64,000 bases of DNA from Coprothermobacter proteolyticus DSM 5265. GTDB lineage: Bacteria; Coprothermobacterota; Coprothermobacteria; Coprothermobacterales; Coprothermobacteraceae. The stretch covers positions 930,001-994,000 of the forward strand of contig NC_011295.1 in the NCBI RefSeq assembly GCF_000020945.1. The letters are read 5' to 3'. Numbering within the stretch: the stretch's first letter is position 1; every line of letters begins with the position of its first letter. The translations under genes and the position numbers were made by a program. Under the pieces are notes generated by a model that saw only the letters and a list, made by a program, of their open reading frames with translations, did not search any database and was not told the DNA's origin. Below are positions 6,304 to 18,478 of this stretch, one piece after another.

Positions 6304-6427
6304 GGGACTTAGCACCAACCTACTCTCCCGGCAGCTCCCGCACACCAGTACCATCGGCTTCCCTGAGCTTAGCTTCCGGGTTCGGAATGGATCCGGGCGT
6401 TTCCCCAGGGCGTGGGCACTAAGTCCC
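6304..6427 (-). rRNA. rrf: 5S ribosomal RNA
   Basis: Read on the minus strand the sequence has the standard 5S core CCGAACCCGGAAGCTAAG and the terminal helix formed by GGGACTTAGTGCC and GGTGCTAAGTCCC. It is last in the rRNA operon. The 3' helix is followed by a T-rich run on the transcript (6290-6303), which may end transcription. The exact ends are approximate. Confidence 0.9.
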
Positions 6428-6565
6428 TTTTTACACACTAAACAACTGTTGGAGAAGGTTTTTAAAGGCTTTCTACTTAAGCACAATCATGTGTTGCCAT
6501 GTAAGCGCTTTTCTTCTACCCATCGCTTATTACTACAAACGCTTTTTTGGTATTCAAGGCCTTCT

Positions 6566-6572
6566 TAAGTGA

Positions 6573-6578
<6 letters not shown>
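6566..6578 (-). other. 3' arm of the 23S rRNA processing stem
   Basis: TAAGTGAAGCAAG at 6566-6578 is a perfect 13-base complement of CTTGCTTCACTTA at 9587-9599. The two arms flank the 23S gene and would form the helix that RNase III-type enzymes cut to release the pre-23S rRNA. Confidence 0.7.
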
Positions 6579-9594
<3,016 letters not shown>

Positions 9595-9727
9595 ACTTAC
9601 TATTTCCTTCTACCTCTTACGCGCTTGTCTTTTTTACAATGGGCTTCCAATTGCTCTCACACGGCTTACTCTTGTGCCTTTGTATTTGTATGCCTTCTCT
9701 ACCTTCTCCCCAGTTGTTTAGCGTGCA

Positions 9728-9802
9728 TGGTGGAGATGAGCGGATTCGAACCGCTGACCCCCTGCTTGCAAAGCAGGTGCTCTCCCGCTGAGCTACATCC
9801 CC
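9728..9802 (-). tRNA. tRNA-Ala (anticodon TGC)
   Basis: On the minus strand GGGGATG pairs with CATCTCC, the anticodon stem CCTGC/GCAGG holds the loop TTTGCAA (anticodon TGC), and the T arm has GGTTCGAATCC. CCA is encoded. It lies in the 16S-23S spacer of the rRNA operon, the usual place. Confidence 0.96.
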
Positions 9803-9912
9803 ACACATTCACAAACAAACACAGCGCAAGCACTTCACAAAAATGCATTTGGCTTGCCCATGTTCGCTTGTCCGCTTGCTTGCTTTTCACCTACTCGGCT
9901 GAGGAACAAAAA

Positions 9913-9989
9913 TGGTGGGCCCTCGAGGAGTCGAACCTCGGACCTTGCCCTTATCAGGGGCACGCTCTAACCTACTGAGCTAAGGGCCC
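9913..9989 (-). tRNA. tRNA-Ile (anticodon GAT)
   Basis: On the minus strand the acceptor GGGCCCT pairs with AGGGCCC, the anticodon loop is CTGATAA (anticodon GAT) in the stem TGCCC/GGGCA, and the T arm has GGTTCGACTCC. CCA is encoded. It precedes tRNA-Ala in the 16S-23S spacer. Confidence 0.96.
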
Positions 9990-10046
9990 ATCCATCAAAC
10001 CGGGATCAGGAAGAAAGAAGAAGAAAAAGGAGTTTCTTTGTTTCAA

Positions 10047-11592
<1,546 letters not shown>

Positions 11593-11920: not shown

Positions 11921-13600
11921 ATGCAGATTATGATATATGTGAGCCAAAGAAAACCCAATAAAACCTTAAAAAACTTCTTCTACAACCTTTCTCCAAAAAA
12001 AGAAATTAAGCGCGTAAACACACCTCAAGAGGCGGTGGACTTACTAAGTAAGAAAGTGGATTCATATGTGTGCGTGGACTTGCTCACAACAAATCTGGAC
12101 GTGCAGACCCTAAACGCACTCATGGAAAACAGTGATAACCTGCTACTTTTGGGACTACACAGTATGCGCCAGAAAAAGAAGGTGGGCATATTTAGCAGAG
12201 GCAGAGCAAACATTGCACTTTTTGATACGGTGGGAACTGCTCTGCAAGAGGCGGGACTGGTTAAAAACGCAAAGCTGATTAACTTGTACAAACCACAAAC
12301 CACAGAAATAACAGAGGATGACATTACTTTTGACAGAAGCTTGCAGCAGGACGAACTGGAAGAAATCAACTTCATACCCCTTAGCTCAGAAGATGCTGCT
12401 GTGGCGATCATGGAACAACTGCCAAAACTGGACTTAGCCATACTTGGTTTGCCCTATCCCATGAACACAGAACATTTCCTGTGGCACTTGGTAGAAAGAA
12501 TCAAAAACGGAAACGGCGGAACCGACTTCATTTTGGTTCGACAGCGCATGCAGAAACCAAAACAGCGCCCACACAGAGTGGAAACAGAGGACCCCACAAC
12601 AGTTTTCGTACGCAATACATTTCCTAAAGCTTCTTTCAACAAGGAATGGATAAGACAGCGGAAAAATGAAAGGAAACAAAGAATTGCTGTGGTCATACCA
12701 GCATTTAATGAAGAAGAAACTATTGCTGAAGTGGTGCAGTGCTACCTGCCCCTTAAAAAAGAAGGCATATTGGATCGCATCGTTGTAATAGACAACGATT
12801 CCACTGATGCCACCTTCAACATAGCAAGGCAGGCAGGGGCTGAGGTCTTTAGAAGTGGTGAAATTCATCCGGAACTGGGCGCTTTTCGTGGAAAAGGGGA
12901 AGCTCTGTGGAAATCCCTGTTTGTACTAAGTAACATTGACATTGTGGCGTTTCTCGACGCTGACATAAAGAACCCCACCGAAGACATGGTGCTGGGCACC
13001 ATTGGACCTCTGGTTTTAAGAAGGGACATACAACTGGTTAAGGGCTACTTTAACCGAGGTGGACCTGAAGACAAAAACCTTAAAAGTGGTGGCGGCAGAG
13101 TAACAGAGATACTTGTTAGGCCACTGCTGAGTATGGAAATGCCTGAGCTACTGTTTTTGTTTCAGCCACTGTCAGGGTTTACAGCTGCTCGCACCTCCTT
13201 ACTAAGGTCCATACCCTTTTACACGGGCTACGGCATAGAAATTGGTTTTCTCATACACACTGCTAAAAAGTTTGGCGTAAGTGCTATTGCCCAGAGCGAC
13301 GTTGGATGGATTGTACACCGTAACCAAAGAATTGAAGCTTTAACGCGCATGAGCACGGAAGTATTGCAGGCTTTTCACGACGCTACGGAGACTGCTCAGG
13401 TGGAAACAGTGGAGCTGAAAACGTCACTGCTTTATGCCCTTCTTTCCAGCGAAAAGTACTCCTTGCTAAAGCGAAATATAACGCAGCTGCGTAGACCACC
13501 GGTAAATACTCTGCTGAAAAGCCTAAGCAGTGAACCTAATAAAGCTTATACGGATTCGCCTAACGCGTCTGCTCCTGATAACACAAGAAAAGATTCTTAA
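11921..13600 (+). CDS. GpgS-like glucosyl-3-phosphoglycerate synthase with extra N-terminal domain
   Basis: Residues from about 254 onward form a GT-A glycosyltransferase closest in pattern to glucosyl-3-phosphoglycerate synthase (GT81): RIAVVIPAFNEEETIAEVV, VIDNDSTDAT, the metal-binding FLDADIKNP (Asp346, Asp348), LVKGYFNR, LSGF and YGIEIGFLI. GpgS transfers glucose from an NDP-sugar to 3-phosphoglycerate in the synthesis of the thermolyte/osmolyte glucosylglycerate. The first 210 residues are not part of the usual enzyme; DLAILGLPYPMNTEHFLWHL and FILVRQ resemble the end of a universal-stress-protein fold. The matching phosphatase (GpgP) is not nearby. ATG 11930 is an alternative start. The 3' end overlaps folD by 41 bases in convergent orientation. 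Confidence 0.7.
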   Translation: MQIMIYVSQRKPNKTLKNFFYNLSPKKEIKRVNTPQEAVDLLSKKVDSYVCVDLLTTNLDVQTLNALMENSDNLLLLGLHSMRQKKKVGIFSRGRANIALFDTVGTALQEAGLVKNAKLINLYKPQTTEITEDDITFDRSLQQDELEEINFIPLSSEDAAVAIMEQLPKLDLAILGLPYPMNTEHFLWHLVERIKNGNGGTDFILVRQRMQKPKQRPHRVETEDPTTVFVRNTFPKASFNKEWIRQRKNERKQRIAVVIPAFNEEETIAEVVQCYLPLKKEGILDRIVVIDNDSTDATFNIARQAGAEVFRSGEIHPELGAFRGKGEALWKSLFVLSNIDIVAFLDADIKNPTEDMVLGTIGPLVLRRDIQLVKGYFNRGGPEDKNLKSGGGRVTEILVRPLLSMEMPELLFLFQPLSGFTAARTSLLRSIPFYTGYGIEIGFLIHTAKKFGVSAIAQSDVGWIVHRNQRIEALTRMSTEVLQAFHDATETAQVETVELKTSLLYALLSSEKYSLLKRNITQLRRPPVNTLLKSLSSEPNKAYTDSPNASAPDNTRKDS

Positions 13601-14381
13601 ACAGACAAGCAGTAGTTACAGAACCCACTCCACCGGGCACAGGTGTGATGGCACGCACTAGTGGTTCCACGTTTTCACGATCTACGTCGCCCACCACCTT
13701 GCCGTCTTCCAATACGTTGGTGCCCACATCAATGACCACAGCACCCTCTTTTACATGATCTTTGGTAAGAAAATTGGGTTTACCTACTGCCACTACTACT
13801 AAGTCTGCTTGCCTTGATAAAGAGGGTAAATCCTTTGTGCGGCTGTGTGCCACAGTCACAGTGGCGTTGCGCTGCATGAGCTGTAAAAACGCTGGCAGAC
13901 CTACCGCTTCGCTTCTACCTATGACCAGTGCGCTTGCTCCTTCCAAAGGCAACACGTTGTAGAAATCCAAAATACTTAGTACGGCTTGAGGAGTTGCCGG
14001 CACCAAATTACCTCTGCCTTGCGCCAGTTTCCCCAAATTCACTGGGTGCAGAGCATCTACATCCTTCTCGGGGGGTATGAGGTCAGAAGCTTGCCTAAAG
14101 TTCCACTCCTTTGGGAAAGGCTTTAGCAGTAGTATGCCATGAACCTGTGAATCCTTGCCCATGACAACAACACTTTGAGTAAGCTCCTGAAACTGTTCTA
14201 CTTCGTTTACGCGAAGTTGAACATTTAGGCGCTGGGCTGCCTTGGAAAGGCCACTTAAGTAACCACCTGCATCGGAGCCCTTGTACTTAATAATGCCCAG
14301 CGTCAAATTCAGTGACGTCATGGGCTGAAGCTCTTCATAGATGGCATCTGCCACCGGTTTTCCTTTCATTATTAAGGCCAT
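13560..14381 (-). CDS. folD: FolD-like methylene-THF dehydrogenase/cyclohydrolase lacking key catalytic residues
   Basis: The 273-residue protein aligns along its length with FolD, which interconverts methylene-, methenyl- and formyl-tetrahydrofolate. Preserved are the motif Tyr (Tyr41), PPEKDVDALHP with the folate-site Asp, the dinucleotide loop VIGRSEAVGLP, VVAVGKPNFL and the C-terminal TPVPGGVGSVT. However the Y-x3-K motif reads YLSGL, so the catalytic Lys is Leu45, and the GILVQLPLP motif reads GILLLKPFP, so the conserved Gln is Leu. A Lys two positions later (Lys47) might compensate. The upstream glycine cleavage operon makes methylene-THF, so a role in one-carbon flow is sensible, but cyclohydrolase activity is doubtful. 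The gene stands alone. Confidence 0.82.
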   Translation of the reverse strand: MALIMKGKPVADAIYEELQPMTSLNLTLGIIKYKGSDAGGYLSGLSKAAQRLNVQLRVNEVEQFQELTQSVVVMGKDSQVHGILLLKPFPKEWNFRQASDLIPPEKDVDALHPVNLGKLAQGRGNLVPATPQAVLSILDFYNVLPLEGASALVIGRSEAVGLPAFLQLMQRNATVTVAHSRTKDLPSLSRQADLVVVAVGKPNFLTKDHVKEGAVVIDVGTNVLEDGKVVGDVDRENVEPLVRAITPVPGGVGSVTTACLFKNLFLCYQEQTR

Positions 14382-14508: not shown

Positions 14509-14619
<111 letters not shown>

Positions 14620-16092
14620 TTACCAACGAACTTTTAACTCCTTATTGGCTTTTACCTCATCAAGGCGCCTAACAGGGGTGTCATGTGGAGCACTCAAAAC
14701 CACATCAGGATTAGTAGCCGCTTCCTCCACAATCTCCTTTATGGCTTGCACAAAGGCATCTAAGTTTTCTTTTGTTTCCGTCTCAGTGGGTTCAATCATG
14801 AGTGCTTCTTTCACAATGAGCGGGAAATACATGGTTGGTGCATGAAAACCTTTATCCAGCAAACGTTTTGCAATATCCTGAGCTTTCACACCGTAGCGCT
14901 TTTTTACCTCTTCTGCTGTGGCAACATACTCGTGCTTACACAAACCAGGATAAGCTGTGGGCAGCGTATCCTCCATGGCAACGCGCATGTAGTTGGCATT
15001 CAAGACCGCCATGGTACCCACTTCGCGCAGTCCCGCTCCACCCAGGGATTTTATGTAAGCCAAAGCCTTTAAGGCAACTAAAATGTTCCCAAAATTGGAA
15101 CGTACCTTGCCAATACTACGAGGCCTGTCATAATCCCAATGGTAGCTACCATCTCCATCTTCATCTTCTGCTTTCACCAAAACAGGCTTTGGCAAAAACG
15201 GTTCCAGAGCTTTTTTGACTGCCACCGGACCGGAACCGGGACCTCCTCCACCATGGGGTGTGCTGAAGGTTTTGTGCAGATTCAAGTGAACAAAGTCGAA
15301 TCCCATATCCCCTGGTCTTGCCCAACCCAGCATGCCGTTAAGATTTGCGCCATCGCAGTACATAAGCCCACCCACACCATGTATGAGCTGTGCAATGCCC
15401 AAGATGTTTTTCTCAAACTTGCCCAGGGTGTTGGGGTTAGTCAGCATGAAAACTGCTGTATGATCGTTAACCAATGCTTTTAGCTGTTCCAAGTCCACTA
15501 AGCCCTCTTCATCAGACTTAACAGTAACCACTTTGAAGCCTGCCATGGTAGCAGAAGCGGGGTTGGTTCCGTGAGCGGAGTCAGGAATGATTACAGTGTC
15601 CTTTTCCAGAAGACCATGGTCTTTGAAATAAGCTTTTGCCATGAGCAGTGAGGTGAGTTCTCCGTGTGCCCCCGCGGCAGGCTGCAGGGTTATGGCATCC
15701 ATGCCCGTTATTTCAAGAAGATCTTGCTGCAAGGTATAAAGCAGTTCCAATAGTGGCTGAACCCTGTTTTCAGGCAAAGCTGGGTGTATGTCTTGGAACC
15801 ACGCCGCCACTTCTTCGTTTATCTTGGGGTTGTACTTCATGGTACAGGAGCCCAGTGGATAAAAACCGTTGTCCACACCGTAATTCAAGTTTGACAAATT
15901 GACAAAATGCCTGACCACTTCTACTTCACTAAGTTCAGGCATGCTTAGTGGTTCTTCGCGAAGAAACTCCTTGGGAAGAATTTCAGATATGGGCCGATCT
16001 TCAAGACCACTCACTGGCACTTGGGGCCCACGCCTACCCATTTTGTGCAGTTCTTTAAGCAAGGGCAATGTGCCTTTTCTACTGTTCATCAT
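14620..16092 (-). CDS. gcvPB: Glycine dehydrogenase (decarboxylating) subunit 2
   Basis: The 490-residue protein is the C-terminal half of the split P-protein of the glycine cleavage system. With subunit 1 it decarboxylates glycine and loads the aminomethyl group onto lipoyl-GcvH. The pyridoxal-phosphate lysine lies in NLHKTFSTPHGGGGPG, and other family signatures are YPLGSCTMKYNPK near the N-terminus and DSAHGTNPASA. It overlaps gcvPA by four bases (ATGA type) and ends just before a strong terminator, so it is the last gene of the operon. Confidence 0.95.
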   Translation of the reverse strand: MMNSRKGTLPLLKELHKMGRRGPQVPVSGLEDRPISEILPKEFLREEPLSMPELSEVEVVRHFVNLSNLNYGVDNGFYPLGSCTMKYNPKINEEVAAWFQDIHPALPENRVQPLLELLYTLQQDLLEITGMDAITLQPAAGAHGELTSLLMAKAYFKDHGLLEKDTVIIPDSAHGTNPASATMAGFKVVTVKSDEEGLVDLEQLKALVNDHTAVFMLTNPNTLGKFEKNILGIAQLIHGVGGLMYCDGANLNGMLGWARPGDMGFDFVHLNLHKTFSTPHGGGGPGSGPVAVKKALEPFLPKPVLVKAEDEDGDGSYHWDYDRPRSIGKVRSNFGNILVALKALAYIKSLGGAGLREVGTMAVLNANYMRVAMEDTLPTAYPGLCKHEYVATAEEVKKRYGVKAQDIAKRLLDKGFHAPTMYFPLIVKEALMIEPTETETKENLDAFVQAIKEIVEEAATNPDVVLSAPHDTPVRRLDEVKANKELKVRW

Positions 16093-17396
16093 CGCAGACC
16101 CTCCATGAGCTCAATAAGCTTGTCCATGTGTTCCTTGGTGCGCTTTTCTGTGACTGCCACCAAAAGCGTGTGCTCATCAATGACGGGACCCACATAGTAC
16201 CCGGAGTCAGCCAAAGCCTCCTGAACAGCCTCAGCATCCCGTGCTTTTATGGGGAATTCCTTGAAAAAGTACTGACGCTGCCAAAGTGGATAGCCCACGG
16301 AAGCCAACTTCTGAGCTAAATAGGTGCTCCTGTTCAAAATGGTTTGACCCAGCTCAGGAAGTGATCCTCCCATGAGAGACAGGTAAACAGCAGATGCCAA
16401 TGCCATGAGCCAGTGGTTGCTGGTAATGTTCGACGTAGCTTTCTCACGGCGTATGTGCTGTTCACGGGTTTGCAATGTGAGCACATAGCCCACCCTTCCA
16501 TCCACGTCCACAGTTTGCCCAGCCATTCTACCGGGCATGTAGCGGATGTAGTCCATCTTGGTTGCAAAGAAGCCAAAATGTGGTCCACCGTAACTCATGT
16601 GGTTACCAAGACTTTGCCCTTCTCCCACTACTACATCGGCTCCGTATTCATGTGGGCTTTTTAGTACGCCCAAGGACAGCGGATCTACGGCAGCCACAAA
16701 TAAGCCACCTGCCTTGTGGATCAGCTCTGAAGCCTGATTCATGTTTTCTAAGAAACCGTAGTAGTTGGGGTTTTGCATAACCAGACAGGAAACATTTGAT
16801 AAATCCTCAAGCTCAGAAAGGTCGGTTACCCCTTCCTTTTGGGGTAAGGTAAGTATTTCAAAGTCCTGACCCAGCTGATACGTTCGAAGAACTTCTATGA
16901 TGTCAGGATGCACGCACTCAGAGACCAAAACGCGTCTCTTCCCATTGATGCGCATAGCCATTAGCACCGCTTCAGCCACTGCACTGGCACCATCATAAAG
17001 GCTGCCATTCGCTACTTCCATGCCCGTCAGCTCACAGATGAGTGATTGGTACTCAAACATGGCTTGAAGGGTGCCCTGACTGATCTCAGCCTGATAAGGT
17101 GTGTAAGCGGTGTAGAACTCGGGTAAAGCGATTATCTTGTCCACTGCTGAAGGTACGTAGTGGTCATAAACGCCACCGCCTAAGAAGTAAACAGCACTGT
17201 TTGCATCTGGAATACTGCTTGCAGCTTTTCTAAAATACGCCCTAAGCTGTTCTTCGTCCCAGCCACCTTCAACTTGAAGATGTCTTTTGAGCAGTGCCTC
17301 GGTGGGTATGTCGCTGAAAAGCTCATCCACATTTCGAAGCCCGACGGCTTCCAGCATGGCTTTGATTTCTTCTTTGGTATGCGGCACGTACCTCAT
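16089..17396 (-). CDS. gcvPA: Glycine dehydrogenase (decarboxylating) subunit 1
   Basis: The 435-residue protein is the N-terminal half of the split P-protein, of usual length. It begins MRYVPHTKEEIKAML and carries the family blocks FLGGGVYDHYVP, YTPYQAEISQGTLQ, ELTGMEVANGSLYDGASA and SYGGPHFGFFA. The fold is the type I PLP enzyme, but the PLP lysine is on the partner subunit. It overlaps both gcvT and gcvPB by four bases, a tightly coupled order gcvT-gcvPA-gcvPB. Confidence 0.95.
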   Translation of the reverse strand: MRYVPHTKEEIKAMLEAVGLRNVDELFSDIPTEALLKRHLQVEGGWDEEQLRAYFRKAASSIPDANSAVYFLGGGVYDHYVPSAVDKIIALPEFYTAYTPYQAEISQGTLQAMFEYQSLICELTGMEVANGSLYDGASAVAEAVLMAMRINGKRRVLVSECVHPDIIEVLRTYQLGQDFEILTLPQKEGVTDLSELEDLSNVSCLVMQNPNYYGFLENMNQASELIHKAGGLFVAAVDPLSLGVLKSPHEYGADVVVGEGQSLGNHMSYGGPHFGFFATKMDYIRYMPGRMAGQTVDVDGRVGYVLTLQTREQHIRREKATSNITSNHWLMALASAVYLSLMGGSLPELGQTILNRSTYLAQKLASVGYPLWQRQYFFKEFPIKARDAEAVQEALADSGYYVGPVIDEHTLLVAVTEKRTKEHMDKLIELMEGLR

Positions 17397-18478
17397 TGCG
17401 TTTTCCCTCGCTTGTAGAACATCTTTGACACAACCTTGGCTGGCACCATTTGTCCATGGATTTGAACTTCAACAGGTGTGCCTATTTTCGCTTTATCCAC
17501 ACGCAAAAATGCCATGGCAATGCTTTTCTTCAAGAAGGGAGCCATGGTTCCCGAAGTAACCACACCCACTTCTTCACCTTCAGAAAAGACCTTGTAACCC
17601 TCTCGGGCAATACCACCGGTAATCTCCAATCCCATGAGCTTCTTTTGAATGCCTGATTCTTTTTGCTTTACTAAGGCTTCTCGACCTATGAACTGCGGTT
17701 TATCCCAGTCAATGACAAAAGCGTAATTCGATTCCAGCGGCGACGTTTCTTCATTAAGTTCGTGACCATAAAGGGGCAAACCAGCTTCAATGCGAAGTGT
17801 GTCACGAGCACCTAAGCCAGCTGGTTTCAAACCCAGTGAAGAACCAGCATCCATGAACTTATTCCACCACGTGGGGGCTTCCTCCATGGGGCCGTAAACC
17901 TCAAAACCGTCCTCGCCAGTATAACCAGTCCTGCTTATGATAAGGCCATGTTCAGGCACTGAGACAAACCCAAAGGCAGCCAAATCAACAACCTGAGGGA
18001 AATAGGTTTTCAATATGTCCACGGCTTTTGGTCCCTGCACAGCAATATCAAACCACTTGTCGGACACATTCTCGAACACGTGAGAGCCTTCTTTGGGCAG
18101 GTAGTTAAGTATGTGCTGGAAGTCCTTCTCAATATTCGCCGCATTTACCACAAGCAGTACTTCATCTGGCGATAGGCGGTAAACGATTAAGTCATCGACG
18201 ACGCCACCACTTTCGTTCAACAGCATGGTGTAAGCAGCCTTCAACGGTTCCAGCTTTGTGAGGTCCACCGTAACCACCATGTTTATGGCATCGATGTCGC
18301 CCTTGTAATAAAACTCGCCCATGTGGGAAACATCGAACATGCCAGCACTGGTTCGCACAGCCATGTGTTCGTCGATTATGCCACTGTACTGCAAGGGCAT
18401 TTCAAAGCCGGCAAATTCAACAAGCTTTGCTCCCAGTGTCTTATGCACTTCATACAAAGAGGTTCTTTTGAGCCCCAA
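17393..18478 (-). CDS. gcvT: Aminomethyltransferase (glycine cleavage T-protein)
   Basis: The 361-residue T-protein releases ammonia from aminomethyl-GcvH and makes 5,10-methylene-THF. Signatures include the N-terminal FAGFEMPLQYSG, FDVSHMGEF, the folate-binding region ISRTGYTGEDGFEVY and GLGARDTLRIEAGLPLYGHEL, and the C-terminal barrel with VTSGTMAPFLKKSIAMAF. AGGAGGCGATGAATC precedes the start. No gcvH (lipoyl carrier) or lipoamide dehydrogenase gene is in this operon, so these must be elsewhere. Confidence 0.95.
   Translation of the reverse strand: MGLKRTSLYEVHKTLGAKLVEFAGFEMPLQYSGIIDEHMAVRTSAGMFDVSHMGEFYYKGDIDAINMVVTVDLTKLEPLKAAYTMLLNESGGVVDDLIVYRLSPDEVLLVVNAANIEKDFQHILNYLPKEGSHVFENVSDKWFDIAVQGPKAVDILKTYFPQVVDLAAFGFVSVPEHGLIISRTGYTGEDGFEVYGPMEEAPTWWNKFMDAGSSLGLKPAGLGARDTLRIEAGLPLYGHELNEETSPLESNYAFVIDWDKPQFIGREALVKQKESGIQKKLMGLEITGGIAREGYKVFSEGEEVGVVTSGTMAPFLKKSIAMAFLRVDKAKIGTPVEVQIHGQMVPAKVVSKMFYKRGKTQ

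Follow-up and report, generated by a model that had tools for sequence, protein, structure and literature searches.

The window analysed here is a stretch of 64,000 nucleotides from a Coprothermobacter genome, at contig positions 930001-994000. It carries a folD gene whose product lacks the catalytic lysine and glutamine of the bifunctional enzyme. The question raised by this locus is whether such a FolD still hydrolyses methenyl-THF or acts as a dehydrogenase only, with the cyclohydrolase step left to another protein. The genome searched was a single contig of 1,424,912 bases (1.42 Mb), 99.5% complete.

The folD product was compared with solved FolD structures, including E. coli FolD (PDB 1b0a). 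It matched PDB FolDs with E-values down to 6e-51, and its AlphaFold model (pLDDT 90) showed a TM of about 0.9 to solved FolDs. Both Pfam domains were detected, the NAD(P)-binding domain at 194 bits and the catalytic domain at only 46 bits, indicating that the protein has diverged mainly in its catalytic half. From Tyr50 to residue 56, E. coli YVASKRK aligned gap-free with YLSGLSK, and GILVQLPLP was changed to GILLLKPFP (residues 82-90). The equivalent residues are Y50=Y41, K54=L45, K56=K47, Q98=L86, L99=K87, and D121=D109. This ungapped alignment confirmed what the earlier note had read from the letters, that the protein is FolD over its full length with both catalytic residues replaced by Leu: the lysine of YxxxK is Leu45 and the glutamine of GILVQ is Leu86. 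The hallmarks of a dehydrogenase-only FolD are present, namely the folate-binding Tyr41, Asp109, and the nucleotide loop GRSEAVG. The note's observation that the NADP loop and the folate Asp were kept was likewise borne out, with GRSEAVG starting at residue 155 and Asp109 at the Asp121 position. The top NCBIfam models matching this FolD carry the bifunctional label.

Table 1. Features of the folD locus, in window coordinates.
Feature	Position	Strand	Remark
folD	13560..14381	-	273 aa, ATG start; catalytic Lys and Gln missing
Nucleotide loop GRSEAVG, residues 155-161	13899..13919	-	kept
Asp109 codon	14055..14057	-	folate-binding Asp121 position, kept
Leu86 and Lys87 codons	14121..14126	-	Gln98 and Leu99 positions
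Lys47 codon	14241..14243	-	E. coli Lys56 position, not the catalytic Lys
Leu45 codon	14247..14249	-	E. coli Lys54 position, ungapped alignment
Tyr41 codon	14259-14261	-	start of the YxxxK motif
Intrinsic-terminator-like hairpin between gcvPB and folD	14585..14612	-	stem 14612-14595 and T-rich tail
gcvPB (glycine decarboxylase subunit 2)	14620..16092	-	
gcvPA	16089..17396	-	by sequence
gcvT	17393..18478	-	by sequence

The same substitutions were found in relatives within the phylum. Two Coprothermobacter FolDs, at 87% identity (from a Coprothermobacter MAG) and 67% identity, have Leu/Leu/Lys at positions 54/98/99, and the FolD of the sister genus (49% identity) has Ile/Val/Lys, together with Phe for Tyr50 and Glu for Lys47. 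This recurrence argues against a sequencing slip or chance. In a second family of the order (G005 and G006), the three positions are Gln/His/Arg. These two FolDs are more divergent still, and Glu replaces the folate-binding Asp121 in them. The most distant family of the phylum has the ordinary Lys/Gln/Leu. All nine phylum genomes contained a PF04961 protein (the FchA/cyclodeaminase family), with an E-value of about 1e-24 in the most distant family versus 1e-45 or better elsewhere, setting aside a fragment in G003. In G007, a distant member of the phylum, FolD keeps Lys54 and a divergent PF04961 protein is also encoded, a combination that weighs against reading PF04961 as the partner of a dehydrogenase-only FolD.

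The whole Coprothermobacter genome contains one PF00763 protein and no second FolD; the search for another folD that had been proposed earlier thus returned no standard enzyme besides the one in the window. It contains one PF04961 protein, encoded at about 437.8-438.4 kb of the contig and unlinked to folD, and one formate-THF ligase at 914.6 kb. These two findings make the PF04961 protein a candidate for the missing cyclohydrolase step. Upstream of folD lies gcvPB, and this order was found in all members of the window FolD family that were seen. The glycine cleavage operon is next door, as the earlier note had stated. With a terminator-like hairpin between gcvPB and folD, however, the gene adjoins the operon but probably does not share its transcript.

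On its other side, folD converges with a glycosyltransferase gene (11921-13600, + strand), and the 3' ends of the two genes overlap by 41 bases (13560-13600). The - strand also carries a complete rRNA operon at 6307-11592 (16S, two tRNAs, 23S, and 5S). Many small ORFs lie antisense to this operon on the + strand, at 8.9-11.3 kb, and are probably not genes.

To place the missing residues in a wider setting, 146 Clostridia genomes were surveyed, of which 139 contained FolD and 52 contained PF04961 over the cut-off, and all 139 FolD sequences were read. Lys54 was missing from FolD in 51 of the 139 genomes, and PF04961 was present in every one of them (51/51). The other 88 genomes have a Lys54 FolD, and none contained PF04961 (0/88). 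Gln98 was also lost in 45 of the 51 Lys54-less FolDs, most of which have Arg at 99. The association of Lys54 loss with PF04961 gave a Fisher p of 3e-39, a value that overstates how many independent events there were, since the FolD tree shows a single deep split. Two apparent exceptions, G044 and G091, with low-scoring FolDs and no PF04961, were dismissed since both keep Lys and Gln. In G119 the PF04961 match was below the cut-off, and in G138 PF04961 was present and no FolD was found. A second clostridial FolD type, with Gln at 54 and Gln98 kept, occurs in five genomes, all with PF04961, and is sister to the Lys54 clade.

The FolD tree was built without the trait columns. Lys54 FolDs formed one clade (96/94), and the window FolD fell outside it, grouped with the Lys54-less FolDs (99/93). 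The state changes once on this tree, and the 51 Lys54-less FolDs thus count as a single deep divergence rather than as 51 separate events. Six separately reached genomes with canonical FolD (Bacillus, Butyrivibrio), one of them shared with the Clostridia sample, contained no PF04961. In another phylum, Fusobacterium vincentii encodes one PF04961 protein and a FolD in which residue 54 is Gln and residue 98 is Asn. The link between these residues and PF04961, exceptionless in the Clostridia sample, seems to be unreported in searchable papers; no open paper tying FolD residues to FchA was found in a search that did not reach the key clostridial paper.

The closest PDB entry to the single PF04961 protein is FchA (7vg4, 4e-22); cyclodeaminase (1o5h) matches less well, at 6e-16. 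Its best NCBIfam model is also FchA, at 131 bits, under the 275-bit equivalog cut-off. On the PF04961 tree it stands on its own branch without resolved placement and not within the folD-adjacent FchA clade. Furthermore, contig positions 914616-920070, about 10 kb outside the window, hold urocanase, glutamate formiminotransferase, an imidazolonepropionase-like amidohydrolase, and the formate-THF ligase, and no cyclodeaminase gene was found within this histidine-degradation row. The row and the tree placement weaken the assignment of the PF04961 gene as plainly FchA. Formimino-THF from histidine normally requires a PF04961 cyclodeaminase, as is established for FTCD. Since the row needs this activity and there is a single PF04961 copy, one enzyme probably serves both methenyl-THF hydrolysis and formimino-THF cyclodeamination.

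Formiminotransferase was found in 20 Clostridia genomes, all with PF04961 (20/20) and 17 with exactly one copy. Sixteen of these 17 have FolD, which is Lys54-less in all 16. Formiminotransferase, one PF04961 copy, and a Lys54-less FolD also occur together in Fusobacterium. The single copy in Fusobacterium vincentii lies within the hut operon, as does a PF04961 gene of Peptoclostridium acidaminophilum; Acetoanaerobium noterae has two copies, one hut-linked and one other. It is tentatively proposed, at somewhat less than an even chance, that a single PF04961 enzyme carries out both reactions and thereby permits FolD to drop its cyclohydrolase half, a basic residue at position 99 often marking FolDs of the dehydrogenase-only kind. 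That one PF04961 protein probably serves in both roles also seems to be unreported in searchable papers.

Judged from sequence, the window FolD is very probably a dehydrogenase only, and the separate PF04961 protein would carry out the cyclohydrolase step. This was one of the two options in the earlier note, and it is supported by the lack of a second FolD, the single FchA-family protein, and the exceptionless link in 139 Clostridia genomes. FolD would use NAD(P)+ to oxidize 5,10-methylene-THF, supplied by glycine cleavage and by serine, to 5,10-methenyl-THF. Its nucleotide domain and its folate-binding Tyr and Asp are retained, and the Lys/Gln pair required for hydrolysis is missing. The PF04961 protein would then convert methenyl-THF to 10-formyl-THF, from which formate-THF ligase may yield formate and ATP, or run in reverse. 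Mutants of E. coli FolD back this reading: K54N retained about 19% dehydrogenase and no detectable cyclohydrolase activity, and Q98H about 8% and about 1%, respectively (PMC5688156).

The other option, that a shifted Lys47 does the work, was not supported. Lys47 occupies the position of E. coli Lys56 without a gap, lies with Tyr41 and Leu45 on one unbroken predicted helix (residues 39-51 of the AlphaFold model), and is Glu in the sister-genus genome G004. Lys56 is found beside Lys54 in 64 of the 88 ordinary Clostridia FolDs, and an E. coli K54_K56delinsK mutant, which is without K54 and R55 and still has a Lys there in its sequence, had no detectable cyclohydrolase activity (PMC5688156). A further form of this explanation turns to Lys87, beside the lost Gln, as the source of the catalytic amine. 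Lys87 is present in all members of the window FolD family, and most Lys54-less FolDs have Arg or Lys at 99 versus Leu in ordinary FolDs, which suggests selection for a basic residue at this position. Moreover, the K53A and Q97A mutants of the silkworm enzyme kept cyclohydrolase activity, and the residues alone are therefore no proof of a lost activity (PMC6443876). However, Arg would not easily stand in for an unprotonated Lys, and Lys54-less FolDs in Clostridia are invariably accompanied by PF04961. A FolD kept bifunctional by Lys47 or Lys87 is thus highly improbable.

It also appears unlikely, if slightly less so, that no enzyme is needed because spontaneous methenyl-THF hydrolysis is sufficient at the growth temperature, with PF04961 acting solely as the cyclodeaminase of histidine degradation. 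The histidine-degradation row just outside the window fits this explanation, and spontaneous turnover was named as the likely reason for the survival of K54N E. coli, although that strain grew very slowly (PMC5688156). However, formiminotransferase is absent from 32 of the 52 Clostridia genomes with PF04961 over the cut-off, where FolD is still Lys54-less and many have PF04961 beside folD. The same FolD/PF04961 pattern is seen in Fusobacterium vincentii and Acetoanaerobium noterae, both mesophiles.

FolDs are generally labelled bifunctional. The bacteria in which this label is wrong can apparently be predicted from the two residues together with a PF04961 gene in the genome, and a wrong label affects metabolic models of amino-acid fermenters. 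Because carolacton is anchored by Lys54 (PMC5688156), Lys54-less FolDs are also predicted to be resistant to it.

FolDs confined to the dehydrogenase step, with the cyclohydrolase on another protein, are already known from clostridia and yeast. The window FolD resembles the Lys54-less clostridial FolDs (YERGA.., GILVFRPLP) in its hydrophobic residue at 54, missing Gln98, basic residue at 99, and PF04961 in the genome, and it is about 39% identical to that of Acetoanaerobium noterae. It has Lys at 99 and Leu at 98, whereas those FolDs mostly have Arg at 99 and Phe or Met at 98. The Clostridium perfringens FolD, annotated as bifunctional, was reportedly found by Aluri et al. in 2016 (reference 20 of PMC7219735) to be a dehydrogenase only, with FchA as the cyclohydrolase. 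Coprothermobacter shares its gene set of FolD, an FchA-family protein, and Fhs, but has folD by gcvPB and its PF04961 gene unlinked. In yeast MTD1, both catalytic residues are replaced. This protein (PDB 1edz) is a distant relative of the window FolD (E = 5e-7), eukaryotic and very divergent, and its replacements are different ones. MTD1 is an NAD-dependent methylene-THF dehydrogenase, monofunctional according to the title of Barlowe and Appling 1990 (cited in PMC11064299).
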